From: Candidatus Sumerlaeia bacterium
Lineage (GTDB): Bacteria; Sumerlaeota; Sumerlaeia; JABWBI01
Reading direction: 5' to 3'
NCBI GenBank assembly: GCA_013360565.1
Contig: JABWBI010000008.1
Span: forward strand, 1 to 36,161
DNA: 36,161 nucleotides
Part shown: positions 1 through 34,100 of the stretch, one piece after another
Position numbering within the stretch: position 1 is the stretch's first letter
Layout of the letters: every line of letters starts with the position of its first letter
Notes under the pieces: generated by a model
Seen by the model: only the letters and a program-made list of their open reading frames with translations
Database searches by the model: none
Told to the model about the DNA's origin: nothing
Position numbers and translations under genes: made by a program

Positions 1-650
1 CGGCGGTGGTGCGGGCGCTCGGCGCGGCGCAGTCGGCGGTGGCGCACGACATGGGGGCCGTCGGGCCGACGAAGGACTGCGCGTACGAGGGCCCGGTGCT
101 GAAAGCGCTGCACGGCGTACCCGTCTCACTGGAGGGCAAGAGCGCGGCGTGCGCCCACCTGAGCCATGTCGGCAATGTGGCGGCGGCGTGCGCGGACCTG
201 TGGTCGAACGAGTCGGTGCAGAATGTGCGGCTCTTGGCCGGGCAGGCGCCGACCGTGTTCGCCGAGATGCTGGTCTACGACTGCCGGCTGATGAACGAGG
301 CGGCGCGGCGGGGCGAGGCGCACCGGCTGCAGGACTGGCTGATTGCGAGCGATGCGCGGCTGAAGCCGGGGGCGTTCATCCTGACGCCGGCGTGAAGCGT
401 GGCGCTGGCGGAGGCGATCGCCTCGACGACGGATCATCTCGGGCGGGCGCGCGCGGTCACTGCGGCGGCGCTGCGGCTGATGCGCGGGGGGGCCGTGGAA
501 GGGCACCTCGTCATCGACGCGCGCGAGACGAGCTGGCTGTCGCGTCTCGAGGATCAGCTCGCCTCGGTGCCGGCCGGCGAGGGGGCCCTGATCGATCAAG
601 TCCAGGCGGCGCGACCGGGCCTGTTCACGCCGAGTGAATACGGCCTGTGA
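1..650 (+). pseudogene. mtaB: MtaB-like methanol--corrinoid methyltransferase, C-terminal part, interrupted by an in-frame TGA
   Basis: The 5' end lies outside the window. MtaB transfers the methyl group of methanol to the corrinoid protein MtaC, using zinc. The visible part carries the typical block GPTKDCAYEG, whose Cys matches the zinc-ligand Cys of the archaeal family (as I recall it), followed by MEGK-like LEGKSAACAH and the conserved DLWSNESVQN. Reading frame 3 runs to a TGA at 393-395. The same frame then continues without another stop to TGA 648-650. The continuation ends in TPSEYGL, matching the family's PENYGF-type C-terminus, and by memory alignment the length across the TGA fits the archaeal protein without a gap. 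So the TGA replaces one sense codon rather than marking two genes. A GTG at 399 could allow restart for the last 83 residues. It is annotated as pseudogene because of the stop; sequencing error, a recent nonsense mutation or recoding are all possible. The family call is strong. Confidence 0.85.
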
Positions 651-713: not shown

Positions 714-2705
714 TTGAATCCTCGATTCCGTGTCACCTCGCTGAGCCCGCGGTCGGTCCGCGTGGAGTTCTCGCTCTCGAGCACCTTCGCCGGGGGGCCG
801 TCGTTCTTCTTCCGGGACCGGGGCGCTCCGTGGCCGTGGGCGCGCGTGAGCGAGCGGAGCGAGGCGACGGTCTTCGAGAGCGAGAGCTTCACTCTGACCG
901 TGCGTGACGGAGCCAACTCGCTCGATGCCGGGGCACTGGAGGTGGCGTGGCGCTGGGGGGGACGCGCCGGGCAGTGGCGGCCAGGCGACATGGACACGCA
1001 GAATCTGGGCGGGCCGTTCTCGGCGCTCGACGTGTTGTCGCGCGAGATCGTTGCCGAGGGGGTGCATGAGTTCGATCCACTCGATGGGCACGACGCACAC
1101 CGGTGCTCGACGCACGAGGTGCATCAGGCGCTTCAGCGGGCGATTCTCGCCGGGACGGGGCGCTTCCCGGTCAACGGGGAGACCATGGAGGAGCTCCGGC
1201 GCTTCGCGGCGGGCGAGCCTTCCAGGCGCCTGAAGAGGTGGCCCGAAGGCTTCCGCCGTGCCCTCGCGCGTGTCCGGCGCTTCCCGCCGGGCTTCCTGAC
1301 GCGCGGCGGGTTGACGGTGATCCGCGACACCGGCCCGCTGTGGGACCGCGAGAAGAATTGGATCACACCGCGTCCCGGGGGGCACGTCGACATCACGTTC
1401 ATCGCCTGCGGCGATGACTACCGCGGCACGCTGGGCGAAATCGCGCGGCTGAGCGGCCCGCCTCCGCTGCTGCCGCGCTTTGCGCTGGGTGTCTGGTTCT
1501 CGTGTTACCGCCGGATGGGGCAGCGGGCCTTCGAGAGGCTCGCCGACAGCTTTGACCAGCACGACCTGCCGCTCGACATGGTCGTCGTCGACACGGACTG
1601 GCACCGGGGATTCTGGCACGGCTTCGACTGGAACCGGCGGCTCTTCCCCGATCCCCCGGCATTCTTCGCCATGCTGCGCGAGCGCGGGATTCACTGCACG
1701 TTCAACGTCCACCCGTGCCACATTCCCGCGACAGACTTCAAGGCAGCGGAGTTTCGGCGACGCACGGGCAGCACGGCGCCGGTGCTGACGGAGGCGACGG
1801 CTCCTCACCCGTTCTTCGCGGGCTGCTTCCGCGCGGATCTGATGAACCCGGCGGAGGCGGAGGCCTACTTCGACGTGTTCCATCGCCCGGTCACAGAGAT
1901 GGGCTGCGACTTCTGGTGGATCGACGGAGCGATGGAGCACTGGGACGGACGCGAGGCGACGGCGTGGCTCAATCATCTCTATTTCGAGCATGTCCGGGGT
2001 GGATCGGACCGGCCGGTGGCGTTCTCGCGGGCATCGGGGCTGGGCTGCCACCGGACGACGCTGGCGTTCTCGGGCGACACGCTCTCGCAGTGGGAGGTGC
2101 TGGGCCAGGCCGTGGAGATGACGGTGCGGGCGGCGAACTCGCTGGTGGTTCATTGGTCGCATGACATCGGCGGCTTCGCGAAGGGCGACCCCTCCTGGAA
2201 GCAGAACAGGCCCCCGGCGGAGCTCTATCTCCGCTGGGTTCAGTTCGGTTGCCTGAGCCCGGTGATGCGCTTCCACAGTGACCACGGCGTGCGCGAGCCC
2301 TGGCGCTTCGGCAGGAGGACACTGGCACTCGCGCGGGAGGCGTTGCAGCTCCGCATGCGGCTGCTGCCTCTCTTCGAGGCCCTGAATCGCGAAGCGCACG
2401 AGACGGGCGTGGGGCCGTGGCGTCCAATGTGTTACGACTGGCCGCAGGAAGAGGAGGCCTTCCGGCGCTGGCGGCAGGCGATGATCGGTGACGGGCTGCT
2501 CTTTGCGCCGGTGATGGCTCCGCAGGGATGGGTAGAGGTGTGGTTTCCGCCAGGGCGGTGGACGCATTTTCAGACGCGAGCGGTCACAGCGGGGCCGTGC
2601 ATCAAGCGCTGGCGGGCCGAGCTGAGCGAAATTCCCCTCTTCGTGCGCGAGGGGTGGGCTCTCGATCTCGCGCCGGCGGCGCGGCGGTCACGGGACATTC
2701 CTTGA
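714..2705 (+). CDS. Glycoside hydrolase family 31 protein (alpha-glucosidase/alpha-xylosidase type)
   Basis: This 663-residue protein has GH31 architecture: an N-terminal beta-sandwich (about 1-200), a catalytic barrel (about 240-560) and a C-terminal beta region. The likely nucleophile is Asp404 in WWIDGAMEHW and the likely acid/base is Asp455 in FSGDTLSQWE. Also visible are WSHDIGGF and LRWVQFGCLSPVMRFHSDHG, the conserved barrel end that shapes the active site. The family hydrolyses terminal alpha-glycosidic bonds with retention; the substrate cannot be read from sequence. No signal peptide is seen, so a cytoplasmic enzyme acting on imported oligosaccharides is likely. The start is TTG at 714: an in-frame TGA at 693-695 blocks anything further upstream, and the first residues (NPRFRVTSLSPRSVRVEFS) already fit the start of the family's N-terminal strand. 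No good ribosome-binding site is visible. The gene lies 63 nt after mtaB and converges on the radical SAM gene. Confidence 0.88.
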   Translation: MNPRFRVTSLSPRSVRVEFSLSSTFAGGPSFFFRDRGAPWPWARVSERSEATVFESESFTLTVRDGANSLDAGALEVAWRWGGRAGQWRPGDMDTQNLGGPFSALDVLSREIVAEGVHEFDPLDGHDAHRCSTHEVHQALQRAILAGTGRFPVNGETMEELRRFAAGEPSRRLKRWPEGFRRALARVRRFPPGFLTRGGLTVIRDTGPLWDREKNWITPRPGGHVDITFIACGDDYRGTLGEIARLSGPPPLLPRFALGVWFSCYRRMGQRAFERLADSFDQHDLPLDMVVVDTDWHRGFWHGFDWNRRLFPDPPAFFAMLRERGIHCTFNVHPCHIPATDFKAAEFRRRTGSTAPVLTEATAPHPFFAGCFRADLMNPAEAEAYFDVFHRPVTEMGCDFWWIDGAMEHWDGREATAWLNHLYFEHVRGGSDRPVAFSRASGLGCHRTTLAFSGDTLSQWEVLGQAVEMTVRAANSLVVHWSHDIGGFAKGDPSWKQNRPPAELYLRWVQFGCLSPVMRFHSDHGVREPWRFGRRTLALAREALQLRMRLLPLFEALNREAHETGVGPWRPMCYDWPQEEEAFRRWRQAMIGDGLLFAPVMAPQGWVEVWFPPGRWTHFQTRAVTAGPCIKRWRAELSEIPLFVREGWALDLAPAARRSRDIP

Positions 2706-2710
2706 AGGCG

Positions 2711-2742
2711 TCGACGCCGGACGTTGGGGCGTCCGGCGTCGA
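2711..2742. terminator. Perfect 13-bp inverted repeat, probable bidirectional terminator
   Basis: The arm TCGACGCCGGACG (2711-2723), a TTGGGG loop and the exact reverse complement (2730-2742) form a strong hairpin 6 nt after the GH31 stop. It lies between two convergent genes, so it could stop transcription from both sides. No T-tract follows on either strand, so this is not a textbook intrinsic terminator. Confidence 0.55.
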
Positions 2743-2808
2743 TCCTCCCGACGAGTGCATCAGTCATGATACCGACAGTGGGGAGAAAACGGGATGGGGG
2801 GACCTCGC

Positions 2809-4794
2809 TCAGCCCATGCGGCCGGTGGCGTCGAAGGCCTTGGACTTGATGATGTGGGCGAGGAACCAGAGGTTGACCTTCACCTCGCGGTACAGGTTGA
2901 CGAGCGTCTGGCCGACGTCGATGCGGTGCCAGCGGAGGGTGCCGAACCAGTGGAGCGTCTGGCGCCAGTGGCGGTTGAGGGTGCGGCGCGAGTAGACGGC
3001 CTGGCGGCGGACGGCGTCGATGGCGTCCTGGCTCTTTCCCAGGAGGCGCTCGCGGCCGGTGAGGGCGACGCGCATGAAGAACTGCGGGAGGCTGCGGTGC
3101 CAGCGCAGGGTGACGAAATTGCGGCCGATGTCGCGCCAGCGGACGATGTGCTGCTTGGCGAGCTGAACGCGCTGGTCGCGCTGGGGCCAGGTGGCGAGCC
3201 AGAGCTCCTGCATCTCCCAATAGAGCTTCACCCACTCCTTGAGGATGTGGCCGACCTCGCGCGTGCGGCGGCGGGTGTAGGTCCACCGGCTCTCGATGGG
3301 GAAGGTGGGCCGGCGCTCGAGGCGGGCCTTGCGGCGGAAGAAGCCGGTGATCATCGGGTGTTCGCCCTCGATCAGGGCGTTCTTGTACCAGATGAAGTTC
3401 TTCATGATGTTGAAGTAGTTGCGGTCCTGCGAGCGCTGGAGGATGCCCTTCATGTTCTCGAAGTTGTAGAAGGTCTTCCAGGCGTCACGGTAGGCCTGGG
3501 TCCACTGCTCGGCGGTCATGCGGGGGTGAGGCATGGCGGCGTGGAAGGAGTCGTAGCGGTTGAAGTCCTTGTCCATCGGCCGCCCCTCCCTGGTCCACCG
3601 CTTGTGGTCGGCGGAGCCGGGCAGGGGGGTCATCATGAAGAAAGAGGCCTGGTCAGGCTGGACCTCGTTCATGAGCTGGAGGAGGTCATGGGAGATGACG
3701 CTGTCGTAGGTGTCGCCGTCGAAGCCGATGATGTAACCGCAGTGGGTGGCGATCTCGTGGGCGCGGTATTTGTCGATGAGGACCTTGTAGTCGGAGATCT
3801 TGTTCTGGTTCTTGCCGGAGTCGGCGAGGTTGGCGGGGTTGAGGGACTCCATGCCGAGGAAGACCTGGGTGCACCCGGCGCGGCGGGCCTTCTCGACGAA
3901 GTTGGGGATGGTGTGGCTGAGAAGGTCGACCTGCATCATGAAGGTCAGGTGGATGCCCTCGCTCTCGCGCAGCTCGATGAGGCGGTCGAAGATCTGCTCC
4001 CAGGACTTGTTGCGGGCGAGGTTGTCGTCCACGAAAAAGTAGTGGGTGACGCCGAGAGCCCAGTTCTCCCGGACCTTCTTGGCGATCCAGTCGGGGCTGC
4101 GCCAGCGCATCTTGCGGCCCTGGACGTTGATGATGGTGCAGAACGAGCAGTTGAAGGGGCAGCCGCGCGACGTGTCGATGGTCGCCATGTGGTTGAAGGT
4201 GAAGCGGTTGCGGTACCGCTTCGGCATGAGCGGGATGGGCTTCTCGAAGAGGTCGGGCTTGTCGTCGACGAAGTTGTAGGTGGGCTCGAGGCGCTCTTCG
4301 AGCGCGGCCTGGAGCAGCTCGTCCCAGTGCTCCTCGACTTCGCCGCAGACGATGGTCACGCCGAGGTCGATCAGCTCCTGAATCTCGGGGGTCATGCCGA
4401 TCATCTCGATCGTGCCCGAGACGTGGAAGCCGCCGAGCATGACCTTGGCGCCGAGGCCCGCGAACTGCTTGGCGAGGTCGGAGGCGCGGGGATACTGGTT
4501 GGTCTGGACGCCGACGAGGCAGACGAGGTCGATCATGCCCTCGCGCTTGCCCCGTTTCATGATTCTGTCTGGGCGGATGCGGTGAACCGTCTCGTCCCAC
4601 ATCTCGATCTCGACGGCGACGTCCGAGCCGAGGACCTGACGCTCCTGGGCGTCCTGCGTCAGGCCCATGAGGGCGGCGAGGGTGTTGGAGGGGAGGGTGC
4701 CCTTCCAGTGGCGGATGACGTACCCCTCGTCGTCGTACTTGGAGGGCTTGATCAGAACAATGCGCAGGGTGCGCGAGGCCGTCGCGGTCGTCAT
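2809..4794 (-). CDS. Radical SAM protein with N-terminal cobalamin-binding-like domain
   Basis: The protein has 661 residues. The N-terminus (about 8-165) resembles the Rossmann-like B12-binding domain of this superfamily: RIVLIKPSKY, a helix-rich middle and MLGGFHVSG. The DxHxxG motif that supplies a lower axial histidine is absent, so cobalamin, if bound, would be base-on or unliganded. The radical SAM core begins at DTSRGCPFNCSFC, where Cys212, Cys216 and Cys219 form the CX3CX2C site for the 4Fe-4S cluster that cleaves S-adenosylmethionine. The core runs to about 400. A long basic, aromatic C-terminal extension (about 440-661) contains the hexapeptide TLRWHR twice (562-567 and 619-624). 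ATG 4794 is chosen over ATG 4842 because the conserved domain begins just after it and AAGGGATGG lies upstream. The reaction is unknown; related proteins methylate or rearrange unactivated carbons. It is 230 nt downstream of the PilZ gene. Confidence 0.85.
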   Translation of the reverse strand: MTTATASRTLRIVLIKPSKYDDEGYVIRHWKGTLPSNTLAALMGLTQDAQERQVLGSDVAVEIEMWDETVHRIRPDRIMKRGKREGMIDLVCLVGVQTNQYPRASDLAKQFAGLGAKVMLGGFHVSGTIEMIGMTPEIQELIDLGVTIVCGEVEEHWDELLQAALEERLEPTYNFVDDKPDLFEKPIPLMPKRYRNRFTFNHMATIDTSRGCPFNCSFCTIINVQGRKMRWRSPDWIAKKVRENWALGVTHYFFVDDNLARNKSWEQIFDRLIELRESEGIHLTFMMQVDLLSHTIPNFVEKARRAGCTQVFLGMESLNPANLADSGKNQNKISDYKVLIDKYRAHEIATHCGYIIGFDGDTYDSVISHDLLQLMNEVQPDQASFFMMTPLPGSADHKRWTREGRPMDKDFNRYDSFHAAMPHPRMTAEQWTQAYRDAWKTFYNFENMKGILQRSQDRNYFNIMKNFIWYKNALIEGEHPMITGFFRRKARLERRPTFPIESRWTYTRRRTREVGHILKEWVKLYWEMQELWLATWPQRDQRVQLAKQHIVRWRDIGRNFVTLRWHRSLPQFFMRVALTGRERLLGKSQDAIDAVRRQAVYSRRTLNRHWRQTLHWFGTLRWHRIDVGQTLVNLYREVKVNLWFLAHIIKSKAFDATGRMG

Positions 4795-9311: not shown

Positions 9312-11267
9312 TCAGCCCGGCGTCTCGCCCGGCATGATCGGGGGCATCGGCAAGTCCAGGGCGGCTGCGACGACACGGATCATCTCGGCTTCGCCGGCGG
9401 TGACCGCGCGGTCGGCGGTGATGCAGAGGACGCAGGCCTCGAAGAGTGTGCGCCGCTGCATGAGGCCGAGCTGCCGGAGATCATCGAGCGCCCGGCCGAG
9501 CGCCTCGAGGGAGCATCTCTCGCGGGGCAGCGGCGTGACCGGCGCTCCCATCTGAAGGTGATGCGAGGCGAGGGCGAAGGCGGCGATGGCCTCCTCGGCG
9601 TCCTCCGCGCCCTCATGCGCCAGGGCGGAGAGGAGCACGCCGATCGACTCCCGGGGTCCGTTGAGCGAGTACCACTTCGTGCGAAGCGTCTCGGCCCCCT
9701 CGAAGCGCGCCGAGAGGCGGCGGATGAAGACGTGGGCGACAGCGAACTCGAACAGGCTCATCTGCCGGTCGGCCTCGATGAGCCGCTGCAGCGTGGAGCG
9801 AAACGACTCGAACTGCGGGCGGGACATCTGCTGCAGCGCCGGCATCGCCATGGCCACGAGGGCGAGCCGATGCTCCCGCGGCAGGGTTGAGACGGGCTGC
9901 TGGAGCATCAGCGTGCGATCGATGAGCGCGGCGTCCCCGGCGGCGCGCACCGCCTGGGTCTGGCGCTCTCGCACCGCGGGATCCGGGTCGAGCAGGAGGG
10001 CGAAGACGAGGGCCCGGGCGGCAAAAGGGCTGTGGGCTGCGTCTTGGAGAAGCGGGGGCACCGCCGAGGTCACCCGCTGGGCGTGAGCCAGGTGAGCGGG
10101 GGTGGGCTTTCCGATCTGCTGCACAAGGGTCTCGGGCTTCAGGGTCAGCACCTGGACGACACCCGCGGCTGCTGCGGGCAGAGGTGAGGGAGGTGTCGCC
10201 GGAGCCGGGGCCGGCGCGGCCTCCTGTCGCGTGACGGCCGGCCATGACCCGTCCCACGACTTGTCGATGCGGCGGATGCGCTCGTCGAGTGGCGGATGCG
10301 TGGCGAAGAGGCTCGACAGGCCGATCGCGTCGCCGAAGAAAAGGTGACTGGCCTGCTCGGCGTTCGGCGTCTTGAGACGCGCGTGTTCGAGGAGTCCGCC
10401 GATCTTCTTGAGCGCGCCGCTGATGCCGCTGGGATCGCGCGTGAACTGGACGGCGGAGGCGTCGGCGAGGAACTCCCGCTGCCGCGAGATGGCAGCCTTG
10501 ATGAGGCGGCCGAAGAGGACGCCGATGTACCCGATGGCCGTCAGAGCGACGGAAATGGCGATGATCACGACGATGACGCCGGCGGCGCCCCCCTGGTTGC
10601 GTCCGCGTCCGCTGGACACCCGCCAGCGGCCGCGGCTGAGGCCGCGGAGCACCGTCTGGCCGATGAGTCCCAGGAGAAGGATGCCGTGCAGCAGACCGAT
10701 GAGACGGACATTGAGGCGCATGTCGCCGTTGAGAATGTGGCTGTACTCATGGGCGACGACGCCCTGCAGCTCTTCACGCGAGAGGAGCTCGATGGCGCCC
10801 CGGCTGACGCCGATCACGGCGTCGCCCGGGCGAAAGCCGGCGGCGAAGGCGTTGATCGACGACTCCTCGTCCATCACGTAGACGGGGGGCGGCTGAATGC
10901 CCGAGGCGATCGCCATCTCCTCGACGACGTTGATCACGCGCCGCTCGTCTGGGTCCGCCGTGTCGCTGGGGATGAGGCGTCCGCCGAGCATCTCGGCGAC
11001 GGCGCGTCCGCCGCGGCCGAGCATGGCGATCTTGACGAGGCTGCCGAGAGCGATCAGGGCAACGGCGGGAATCAGGGTCGCCAGGAGAACCTGAGGATCG
11101 AGGAGCCAGCGCCGGTAGCCGGCGCCTGGCTGAGAGTTCGCTGCGCTCAGGACTCCGGCGACGGCCAAGTGGACCGTCAGGACGATGGCCACGACGGCTG
11201 CGAGGAAATACGCGGCGAGAAGGGCCGTCCTCCGCCGCGCCTGCACCTGATGGTCGAAGAAATTCAT
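9312..11267 (-). CDS. M48-family membrane metalloprotease, HtpX-like, with long C-terminal extension
   Basis: The protein has 651 residues against about 290 for classical HtpX. Two transmembrane helices come first (about 14-40 and 58-80), then the zinc motif HEYSH (173-177) inside VVAHEYSHILNGD. Two more hydrophobic segments follow (about 190-207 and 229-253), then the third zinc ligand, Glu265, in SRQREFLADA. The family degrades or clips misfolded membrane proteins, with the active site facing the cytoplasm. The last 320 residues form an alanine-rich helical region; its end (CVLCITADRAVTAGEAEMIRVVAAAL) is reminiscent of a TerB-like helical domain, though I hold that loosely. ATG 11267 places the first helix at the N-terminus. 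Being next to the MoxR/VWA pair hints at a proteostasis neighbourhood, but the genes are on opposite strands. Confidence 0.87.
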   Translation of the reverse strand: MNFFDHQVQARRRTALLAAYFLAAVVAIVLTVHLAVAGVLSAANSQPGAGYRRWLLDPQVLLATLIPAVALIALGSLVKIAMLGRGGRAVAEMLGGRLIPSDTADPDERRVINVVEEMAIASGIQPPPVYVMDEESSINAFAAGFRPGDAVIGVSRGAIELLSREELQGVVAHEYSHILNGDMRLNVRLIGLLHGILLLGLIGQTVLRGLSRGRWRVSSGRGRNQGGAAGVIVVIIAISVALTAIGYIGVLFGRLIKAAISRQREFLADASAVQFTRDPSGISGALKKIGGLLEHARLKTPNAEQASHLFFGDAIGLSSLFATHPPLDERIRRIDKSWDGSWPAVTRQEAAPAPAPATPPSPLPAAAAGVVQVLTLKPETLVQQIGKPTPAHLAHAQRVTSAVPPLLQDAAHSPFAARALVFALLLDPDPAVRERQTQAVRAAGDAALIDRTLMLQQPVSTLPREHRLALVAMAMPALQQMSRPQFESFRSTLQRLIEADRQMSLFEFAVAHVFIRRLSARFEGAETLRTKWYSLNGPRESIGVLLSALAHEGAEDAEEAIAAFALASHHLQMGAPVTPLPRERCSLEALGRALDDLRQLGLMQRRTLFEACVLCITADRAVTAGEAEMIRVVAAALDLPMPPIMPGETPG

Positions 11268-16728: not shown

Positions 16729-19000
<2,272 letters not shown>

Positions 19001-31166: not shown

Positions 31167-34100
31167 ATGCGCTGCATCGCCGCTGCGCTCGCTCTCGGCC
31201 ACGCTCTCCTGGCGGGCTCGGCCGCGTCGCCGGTGCTGACGCGCCTGCGTCCCCTCGACCTGACGGTCTCGCCGTGGGTGTTCACCCCCGGTGCGGACAT
31301 CGGTTCAACGCTGGCGCGGCGCGCATCCCTCGAGCCAGAGGGACACACGGTCACGCTCCCGGCCGAGCTCGAGTCGGACTCCGGCGCCGGGTCGCTGACC
31401 TTTGTCTTTCATGTCGAGGATGCCATCTGGTACGAGCGCCCAGTGCTGTCGTCCGAGCTGACGATCGGCGACATCCGGGGAGGCGACGAGGTCTTTCTCA
31501 ACGGGGAGCGAATCGGTGCCTCGTCGGGGATGGCGATCGCCGACACGGGATTGCCGCGGCGGCACATTCTCCCCTCTCGTCTTCTGCGCTTCGGAGGGTG
31601 GAACGAGCTCCGCATCGTCATTCGGGGACTCGGGGGAACGCCGGTGCTGCGAGTGCGGGGGCCCATCACTCTCTCTGCACTCGGCCCGTACGAGCTGTGG
31701 CGACGGAGCGCGTCGTGCCGCACGGACCTCCAGGCTCTGACGCAGACGCTTTGGCGGGCGGAGGAAGAGGCGATCCGCCCGCGGACGGTGCGCGCGCTGT
31801 GGCGCGCGCACCGGAGACTGATCGTGCGGCTGGCCGATGCGGAGACGGCTCTGGGTGCCGGGCAGTGGGGGAGGGCGCGCCGCCTTCTGGATTCGACCGA
31901 GGACAGTCTGCATGGGCTCGATGCACGGCTGGCACAGCTGCGGTTCGACCTGCGCGACCGGGAGAGCGAGCGCCAGCGGGCGCGTCTCGGTCAGCTGACA
32001 GCCCTTCTGACGAGCGATGAGCGTGCGCGGGGGATCACGGTGCGCGCGCGTTCTCCGGGTTTCGGGCGGTTCGGACTGTGGCTCCACGACGGGACGTCGC
32101 ATCTCGAGCGCGTGTCGCCGGTGGAGGTGCGTGGCCGCGGCGCGATGGGTTGGCGGCTGGCTGTGGACACGCTGTTCGCTGCCGAGGTGGTGGACATCGG
32201 CTGGACGTCAAAGACGACACTGGTGACGGGCCTGCGAGGCGACCACCCCTGCGACTGGGCGGTGACGGCCTCCCTGCCGTTCCCCGGCGTGATGATCGAA
32301 CAGCGAGCAGGGCGTGACACGGCGTTCGATCTCGAGGCGCCGGCGGCGTCGCTCGCCATTCACACGCTTCGGCGGCGCCCCGGCGGGGTCGAGGTCTCGG
32401 CGGGGGCGCGCGGCCATGACGGCGGAGCGCTCGCCCTGCTGGTGACGCGACGCGGCGAGGCGGAGTCGATCTGGGCCGTGATTCCGCCGGAACCGTTCGA
32501 GCAGGTGGACCTGGTGCCGCGGGGATCCGGCATGACGCGGCTCACCCTGCGGTTCCCGCCGGGCTCGTCGCGGCGTCTGGTCCTGGCGCCGCTGGACGGG
32601 ATCGGCCTGCGAGACACGCACACGCTCACGTCCGCCGATGCTGAGGCGGCGGCGGCTCTGGTCGTCTTGGCGCAGGAGTTCCCGGCGCGTGTGGAGGAGT
32701 TCTACGCGGTCGATGAGACGGCTGGCCGCGTCAGGGTCTTCGATCTCTTCACTCCCCGCGCGCTGGACCCGAGACGGGATCTGCCGGTGGATCGCGCCGT
32801 CTGGTTTCCGCCGCTCGTGGCGTTCGCCGCGGAGCGGGGGCTCGGCGCGGAGCTGCTCTCGGACGATCCCATCTCGCTGAGGGCGACAGCGTTCGAGGGC
32901 CCCACGCTCGCGGCCCGCGCTCCGGGGGGGCTTGCGGCCTACTCACTCGCTCTTCCGTCGCTCGAGGGACGCTTCCATCTGGCCACCGAGCGGAGCCCGG
33001 ACCTCCAGGCGATGCTCAACCGGCACCTCACCGACCTCGGCGCGCCGACGATGCCCAATGGGGTGGACCGCACCTACAAGAGCCGTGCGCAGGGGTATCA
33101 CGCCTGGGCCCTGCTGTCGCCGGAAAACCGGCGCCGCCTTTCCGAGAACGGGCAGCAGATGATCCCGCTGACGTTCGACCCCGCCATCTGGTACGCGTGG
33201 ACGGAGCCCTTTTCGGGCATGACGACTTGGCACACTTACACGATCGAGGGGCCGGGGTTCGACCTCTACGACCAGGAGTGGGGCAACGGGCTGACGCTGT
33301 ATGCGCTGTCGCTCTGGATGATGGTCGAGGACGGAGCGGCTCAGCTTCAGCCACACCTCGAGATGCTCCAGCGGATCTGGGCGTGGTGGCCGATGACAGA
33401 CGACTGGGCATGGATGCGGTCGTCGAACGGATTTCACGGCCACGGGACGGGGGCGGGAGACTGCTCGTGCGCGGACTTCGCGGGGGCGCTGGGCCGGGCG
33501 CGCATCATGGAGGCGATGGGGGACTCCGCCGGGCGCGACGAGGCATGGCTCGTCGCGGCACGCTCGGCGCTGTCCACTGTGGGGCGCTTCGCGCTGACAC
33601 CTTGGGCACGCGAGCGCGGTCTGCTCGCGTCCACGGAGGTCGCCGTCGGCTTTCACGAGGGCGAGGGTTTCCTGGCCGGCGACGTGACTGACTACCCATG
33701 GAACGTGACGTCGATGATCTCCGGCAACGGTGTTCAGCCGGAGCTGTTCGATCTGTTGATGGCCCGCGTGCCCGAGCGCCTTCAGGCCCTCGAAGACGAG
33801 GTGCTGAGCGCGAACCCCACGATCTTCGATGGCACGGCGGACTACGGGCGGGCGACGATCTACCAGGGAAATTCGGGCTACATCACGCTGCCGCACCTGT
33901 GCGCCCAGGCGCGGCTCGGGACACCGGACGAACAGCTGCGCAATTGGGTCGCGCTGGCGGAATCCAACTCGCATCTGTGGTGGCAGGCGCCGACCACACT
34001 CGCGGAGATCATCGGCCGGGATTCCGGTGCTTGGCTGCTCGGCTGGTCGGCGGGCCGATGGCTGCGCGGTCAAGTCGGCGAAGGAGGAACAGTGAGATTG

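Follow-up and report, generated by a model that had tools for sequence, protein, structure and literature searches.

A single in-frame TGA in an otherwise conserved bacterial mtaB gene is most readily explained as a recent nonsense mutation or a draft-assembly base error

The window, the whole stretch of 36,161 nucleotides analysed here, is contig C2 of the draft genome of a Candidatus Sumerlaeia bacterium (3.33 Mb, 422 contigs, 82% complete) and, because the contig ends there, it begins within a gene for the methyltransferase MtaB. Frame 3 runs from position 3 to 650, closing with TGA at 648-650, and it is not the single uninterrupted reading frame of a normal mtaB, as it contains one internal stop, a TGA at 393-395, exactly where the original prediction had placed it in a frame otherwise open to 650. 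The 5' portion of mtaB is found on another contig of this genome, C105, the end of which overlaps the start of the window by an exact 42 nt; this 42-nt sequence is present only at the ends of these two contigs, making the join unique, and in the joined gene of 461 codons the TGA is codon 377. The features of the locus are as follows.

3..650, + strand: 3' portion of mtaB (approximately codons 247-461, plus stop), assigned from the PF12176 match and the unique 42-nt overlap
393..395, + strand: internal TGA in frame with mtaB (joined-gene codon 377), a sense codon in 89 homologous sequences
399..401, + strand: GTG proposed as a restart, read from the sequence, with no preceding Shine-Dalgarno-like sequence
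411..424, + strand: palindrome GAGGCGATCGCCTC, codons for Glu-Ala-Ile-Ala-Ser, read from the sequence, not kept in the sister genome
648..650, + strand: normal terminal stop of mtaB, also TGA, read from the sequence

The 216-residue product obtained by reading through the TGA gives a single continuous match to PF12176 (profile 243-459 of 460, 219 bits, E 1.4e-64) and the part on C105 matches profile positions 5-254 with 266.9 bits, so that the two parts lie above the Pfam cut-off of 25 bits along the whole profile, and a function in methanol:corrinoid methyl transfer is predicted from this family match. An alignment to archaeal MtaB without a gap across the site, which had been proposed originally, was recovered with PDB 2I2X chain A (E 9.4e-31), but the closest relatives are bacterial rather than archaeal, the nearest being 71% identical and from a Candidatus Sumerlaeota MAG. 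The gene shares with known MtaB (PF12176; PDB 2I2X chain A; bacterial copies in Moorella, Clostridium, Bacteroidales and others) the whole-length match, the KDCAYE and WSNES motifs, a C-terminal YGL and the presence of mtaC in the genome, and differs from them in the one in-frame TGA at codon 377 and in an mtaC that is not adjacent. No second intact copy of mtaB was found in the assembly, an Rfam search of the window gave no match, and a scan for promoters and terminators around the TGA site found none.

The gene for the partner corrinoid protein MtaC is intact on contig C198 (1732-2394), with no internal stop, and its product is 72% identical to the MtaC of the sister genome (G001, same family, 92% complete). 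The sister has mtaC next to mtaB (its mtaB, on contig C286, is the same as that in record JAFGKF010000278.1, a Candidatus Sumerlaeota MAG), whereas here mtaC is on a separate contig and does not adjoin mtaB. Contig C105 also encodes a URO-D/MtaA-like protein and the C-terminal portion of a corrinoid activation protein and, with mtaC intact, the presence of these genes indicates that the pathway was recently in use. What precedes mtaB on C105 is not mtaC but a gene for an FG-GAP/P-domain secreted protein (914-2962, minus strand). This protein and a secreted protein encoded in the window (18113-19000, minus strand) end in similar dockerin-like C-terminal motifs, one of which is DVNGDGQVDAADIVDYLLEHGG.

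An important consideration is the state of the sequence 3' of the TGA. Compared with the sister, identity is 0.82 for the 130 residues 5' of the TGA and 0.45 (0.447) for the 47 residues 3' of it, and dN/dS against the sister is 0.21-0.29 before the TGA and 0.71 over the 47 codons after it. In a control set of 488 homologue pairs, chosen for an identity of 0.75-0.88 before the site, post-site identity had a mean of 0.50 (sd 0.13) and was at or below 0.447 in 44% of pairs; similarity to the sister after the TGA is thus what is expected of the less conserved part of the family and is the normal family pattern. Against an outgroup the same 47 residues were slightly less identical in this genome (0.214) than in the sister (0.274), and this, together with the higher dN/dS, could hint at relaxed constraint, though the region is always less conserved in the family. 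GC content by codon position is similar on both sides of the TGA; the gene retains E421, P436, E439 and a terminal Tyr-Gly-Leu, the last being the C-terminal conservation that had been predicted (Y in 100%, G in 83% and L in 87% of homologues). The 3' part of mtaB shows no clear decay, and the claim that the TGA is accompanied by little other damage holds, the following sequence being preserved as it is in intact homologues. Decay of an old pseudogene was considered and rejected, the region after the TGA being no less conserved than in intact pairs.

The TGA has no counterpart among the homologues examined. Across 89 homologous sequences, drawn from many phyla and including a few duplicates, the residue at the corresponding position is N in 44, V in 17, I in 9, S in 8, A in 7, T in 3 and F in 1, and in none of the 89 is there a Cys, a Trp or a stop. 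The sister, the sole other member of its taxonomic family examined, has GCG (Ala) at the site, and no closer relative with the same TGA was found. The search of related genomes suggested in the original prediction thus shows that the TGA is not a family feature, and the variability of the site is such that neither selenocysteine nor reassignment to Trp would be expected there.

As in bacterial selenoproteins, an internal TGA stands here between conserved flanks, and the insertion of selenocysteine would make this MtaB a selenoprotein. One test of such candidates looks for Cys or Sec at the corresponding position of homologues (PMC1088965), and neither occurs in any of the 89 sequences. The look-up of selA, selB and selC that had been proposed yielded nothing above cut-off in this genome or in the more complete sister: the curated selA model gave no match in either, the selB matches of this genome fell below the cut-off of the curated model and the best of them is EF-Tu, with likewise none above cut-off, and only EF-Tu in place of selB, in the sister, and the top-scoring candidate for tRNA-Sec (43.8 bits, where 47 is the cut-off) sits on a tRNA-Ser gene, again with none above cut-off in the sister. 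The combination of selA, selB and tRNA-Sec is therefore lacking from both genomes, at 82% and 92% completeness. Within the class, selA was above cut-off in ten genomes (G003, G005, G006, G008, G010, G011, G012, G016, G020 and G023), about a quarter of those searched, and was absent from the rest, including the family studied here, which makes selenocysteine a patchy trait. Apparent TAG stops inside the selB matches of two other members of the class proved to be the ordinary ends of EF-Tu genes.

The palindrome GAGGCGATCGCCTC does lie at 411-424, and the earlier judgement that it lacks the features of a selenocysteine insertion element was right in effect. A hairpin 16 nt after the TGA formally satisfies a loose bacterial SECIS rule (a 5-bp stem and a G opening the loop, with the loop 16-37 nt after the UGA), but so do 56% of 6208 control codons from the genes of the window. 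Stretches of 48 and 58 nt from the TGA folded no better than shuffled sequences (z-scores of -0.02 and 0.21, respectively), and no SECIS hairpin beyond chance was therefore found; the sister DNA reads AAGGCCATCGCGGCC at the corresponding place, so the palindrome is not conserved. Literature searches found no MtaB selenoprotein. The conserved flanks and the hairpin speak for selenocysteine, but against the other evidence its probability is close to negligible, and this form of read-through was removed from the options originally listed.

Other ways in which a genuine TGA might be tolerated have to be set against the use of this codon elsewhere in the genome, where, in 245 kb, 109 of 119 long frames close with it, as do all 12 of the window genes checked. 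TGA is thus the standard terminator and there is no general recoding; genome-wide reassignment of TGA to a sense codon, for which no support was found, has a likelihood that is practically nil. Read-through by a near-cognate tRNA, yielding some full-length MtaB, would account for the conserved part after the TGA, but a recent event or an error would explain that conservation just as well, the TGA is common to no relative examined and is the genome's main terminator, and such read-through is highly unlikely. A two-chain MtaB, with translation restarting at GTG 399 three bases past the stop, would make use of an in-frame GTG directly after the TGA, but no Shine-Dalgarno-like sequence was found upstream of it, no split homologue occurs among the 89 and the conserved C-terminal residues would be detached. 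For these reasons truncation with restart, which had been among the options first proposed, is regarded as extremely unlikely, while sequencing error and recent nonsense mutation are retained from that list. In more general form, a real and maintained TGA that yields two forms of MtaB, or a split one, through reinitiation at GTG 399 or low-level read-through is very unlikely.

By far the most probable explanation is that the TGA arose through one change at base level in a bacterial mtaB that is otherwise intact, whether as a recent nonsense mutation carried by the organism or by one of its strains, or as a base error in the draft assembly; all other readings taken together are unlikely. An assembly error or strain variant is given about an even chance and a recent nonsense mutation slightly under an even chance, a division which is a matter of judgement and which reads alone could separate. 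A base error might have arisen at this site, about 390 bases from a contig end of a metagenome draft, and the assembly is fragmented, with mtaB itself split by the contig end, which was counted in favour of a base-level event. A codon-usage scan of the 245 kb for other interrupted genes returned mostly antisense shadow frames and ordinary gene neighbours and so places no more than a loose bound on the error rate. A genuine TGA would end translation at residue 376 and deprive the product of its final 85 positions, the conserved YGL among them, leaving a truncated MtaB that is probably non-functional. We infer that the TGA had a single-base origin, that it is recent and that any real lesion brings loss of function.

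The pyrrolysine methyltransferases MtmB, MtbB and MttB are corrinoid-dependent enzymes with an in-frame stop, TAG, at the catalytic site. MtaB resembles them as a corrinoid-dependent methyltransferase with an in-frame stop, but here the codon is TGA, the site is variable and the enzyme is a zinc enzyme. Bacterial selenoproteins differ from the present case in their selenocysteine machinery, their Cys homologues and a distinctive SECIS, and the TGA is known here from a single sequence only. When the locus is set beside draft MAGs with a nonsense mutation or point error, no difference emerges: the one lesion, the intact flanks and the fragmented genome are shared. The finding is ordinary and alters nothing known, but it is a useful negative, in that a gene in a metagenome bin can mimic a new selenoprotein when an internal TGA has intact flanks and a hairpin close by. 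Such a case can be dismissed cheaply by asking which residue homologues have there, whether the genome and a sister contain selABC, and how often control codons satisfy the hairpin rule. Should reads confirm the TGA, it would mean that one Sumerlaeota lineage has recently lost methanol use.

A further observation concerns GGCGATCGCC, a palindrome resembling the cyanobacterial HIP1 core, which occurs in the window at 413-422, 10905-10914, 17695-17704 and 31532-31541. These four copies compare with 0.47 expected, a count of four being reached in 2 of 100 shuffles, and the excess may come from codon usage.
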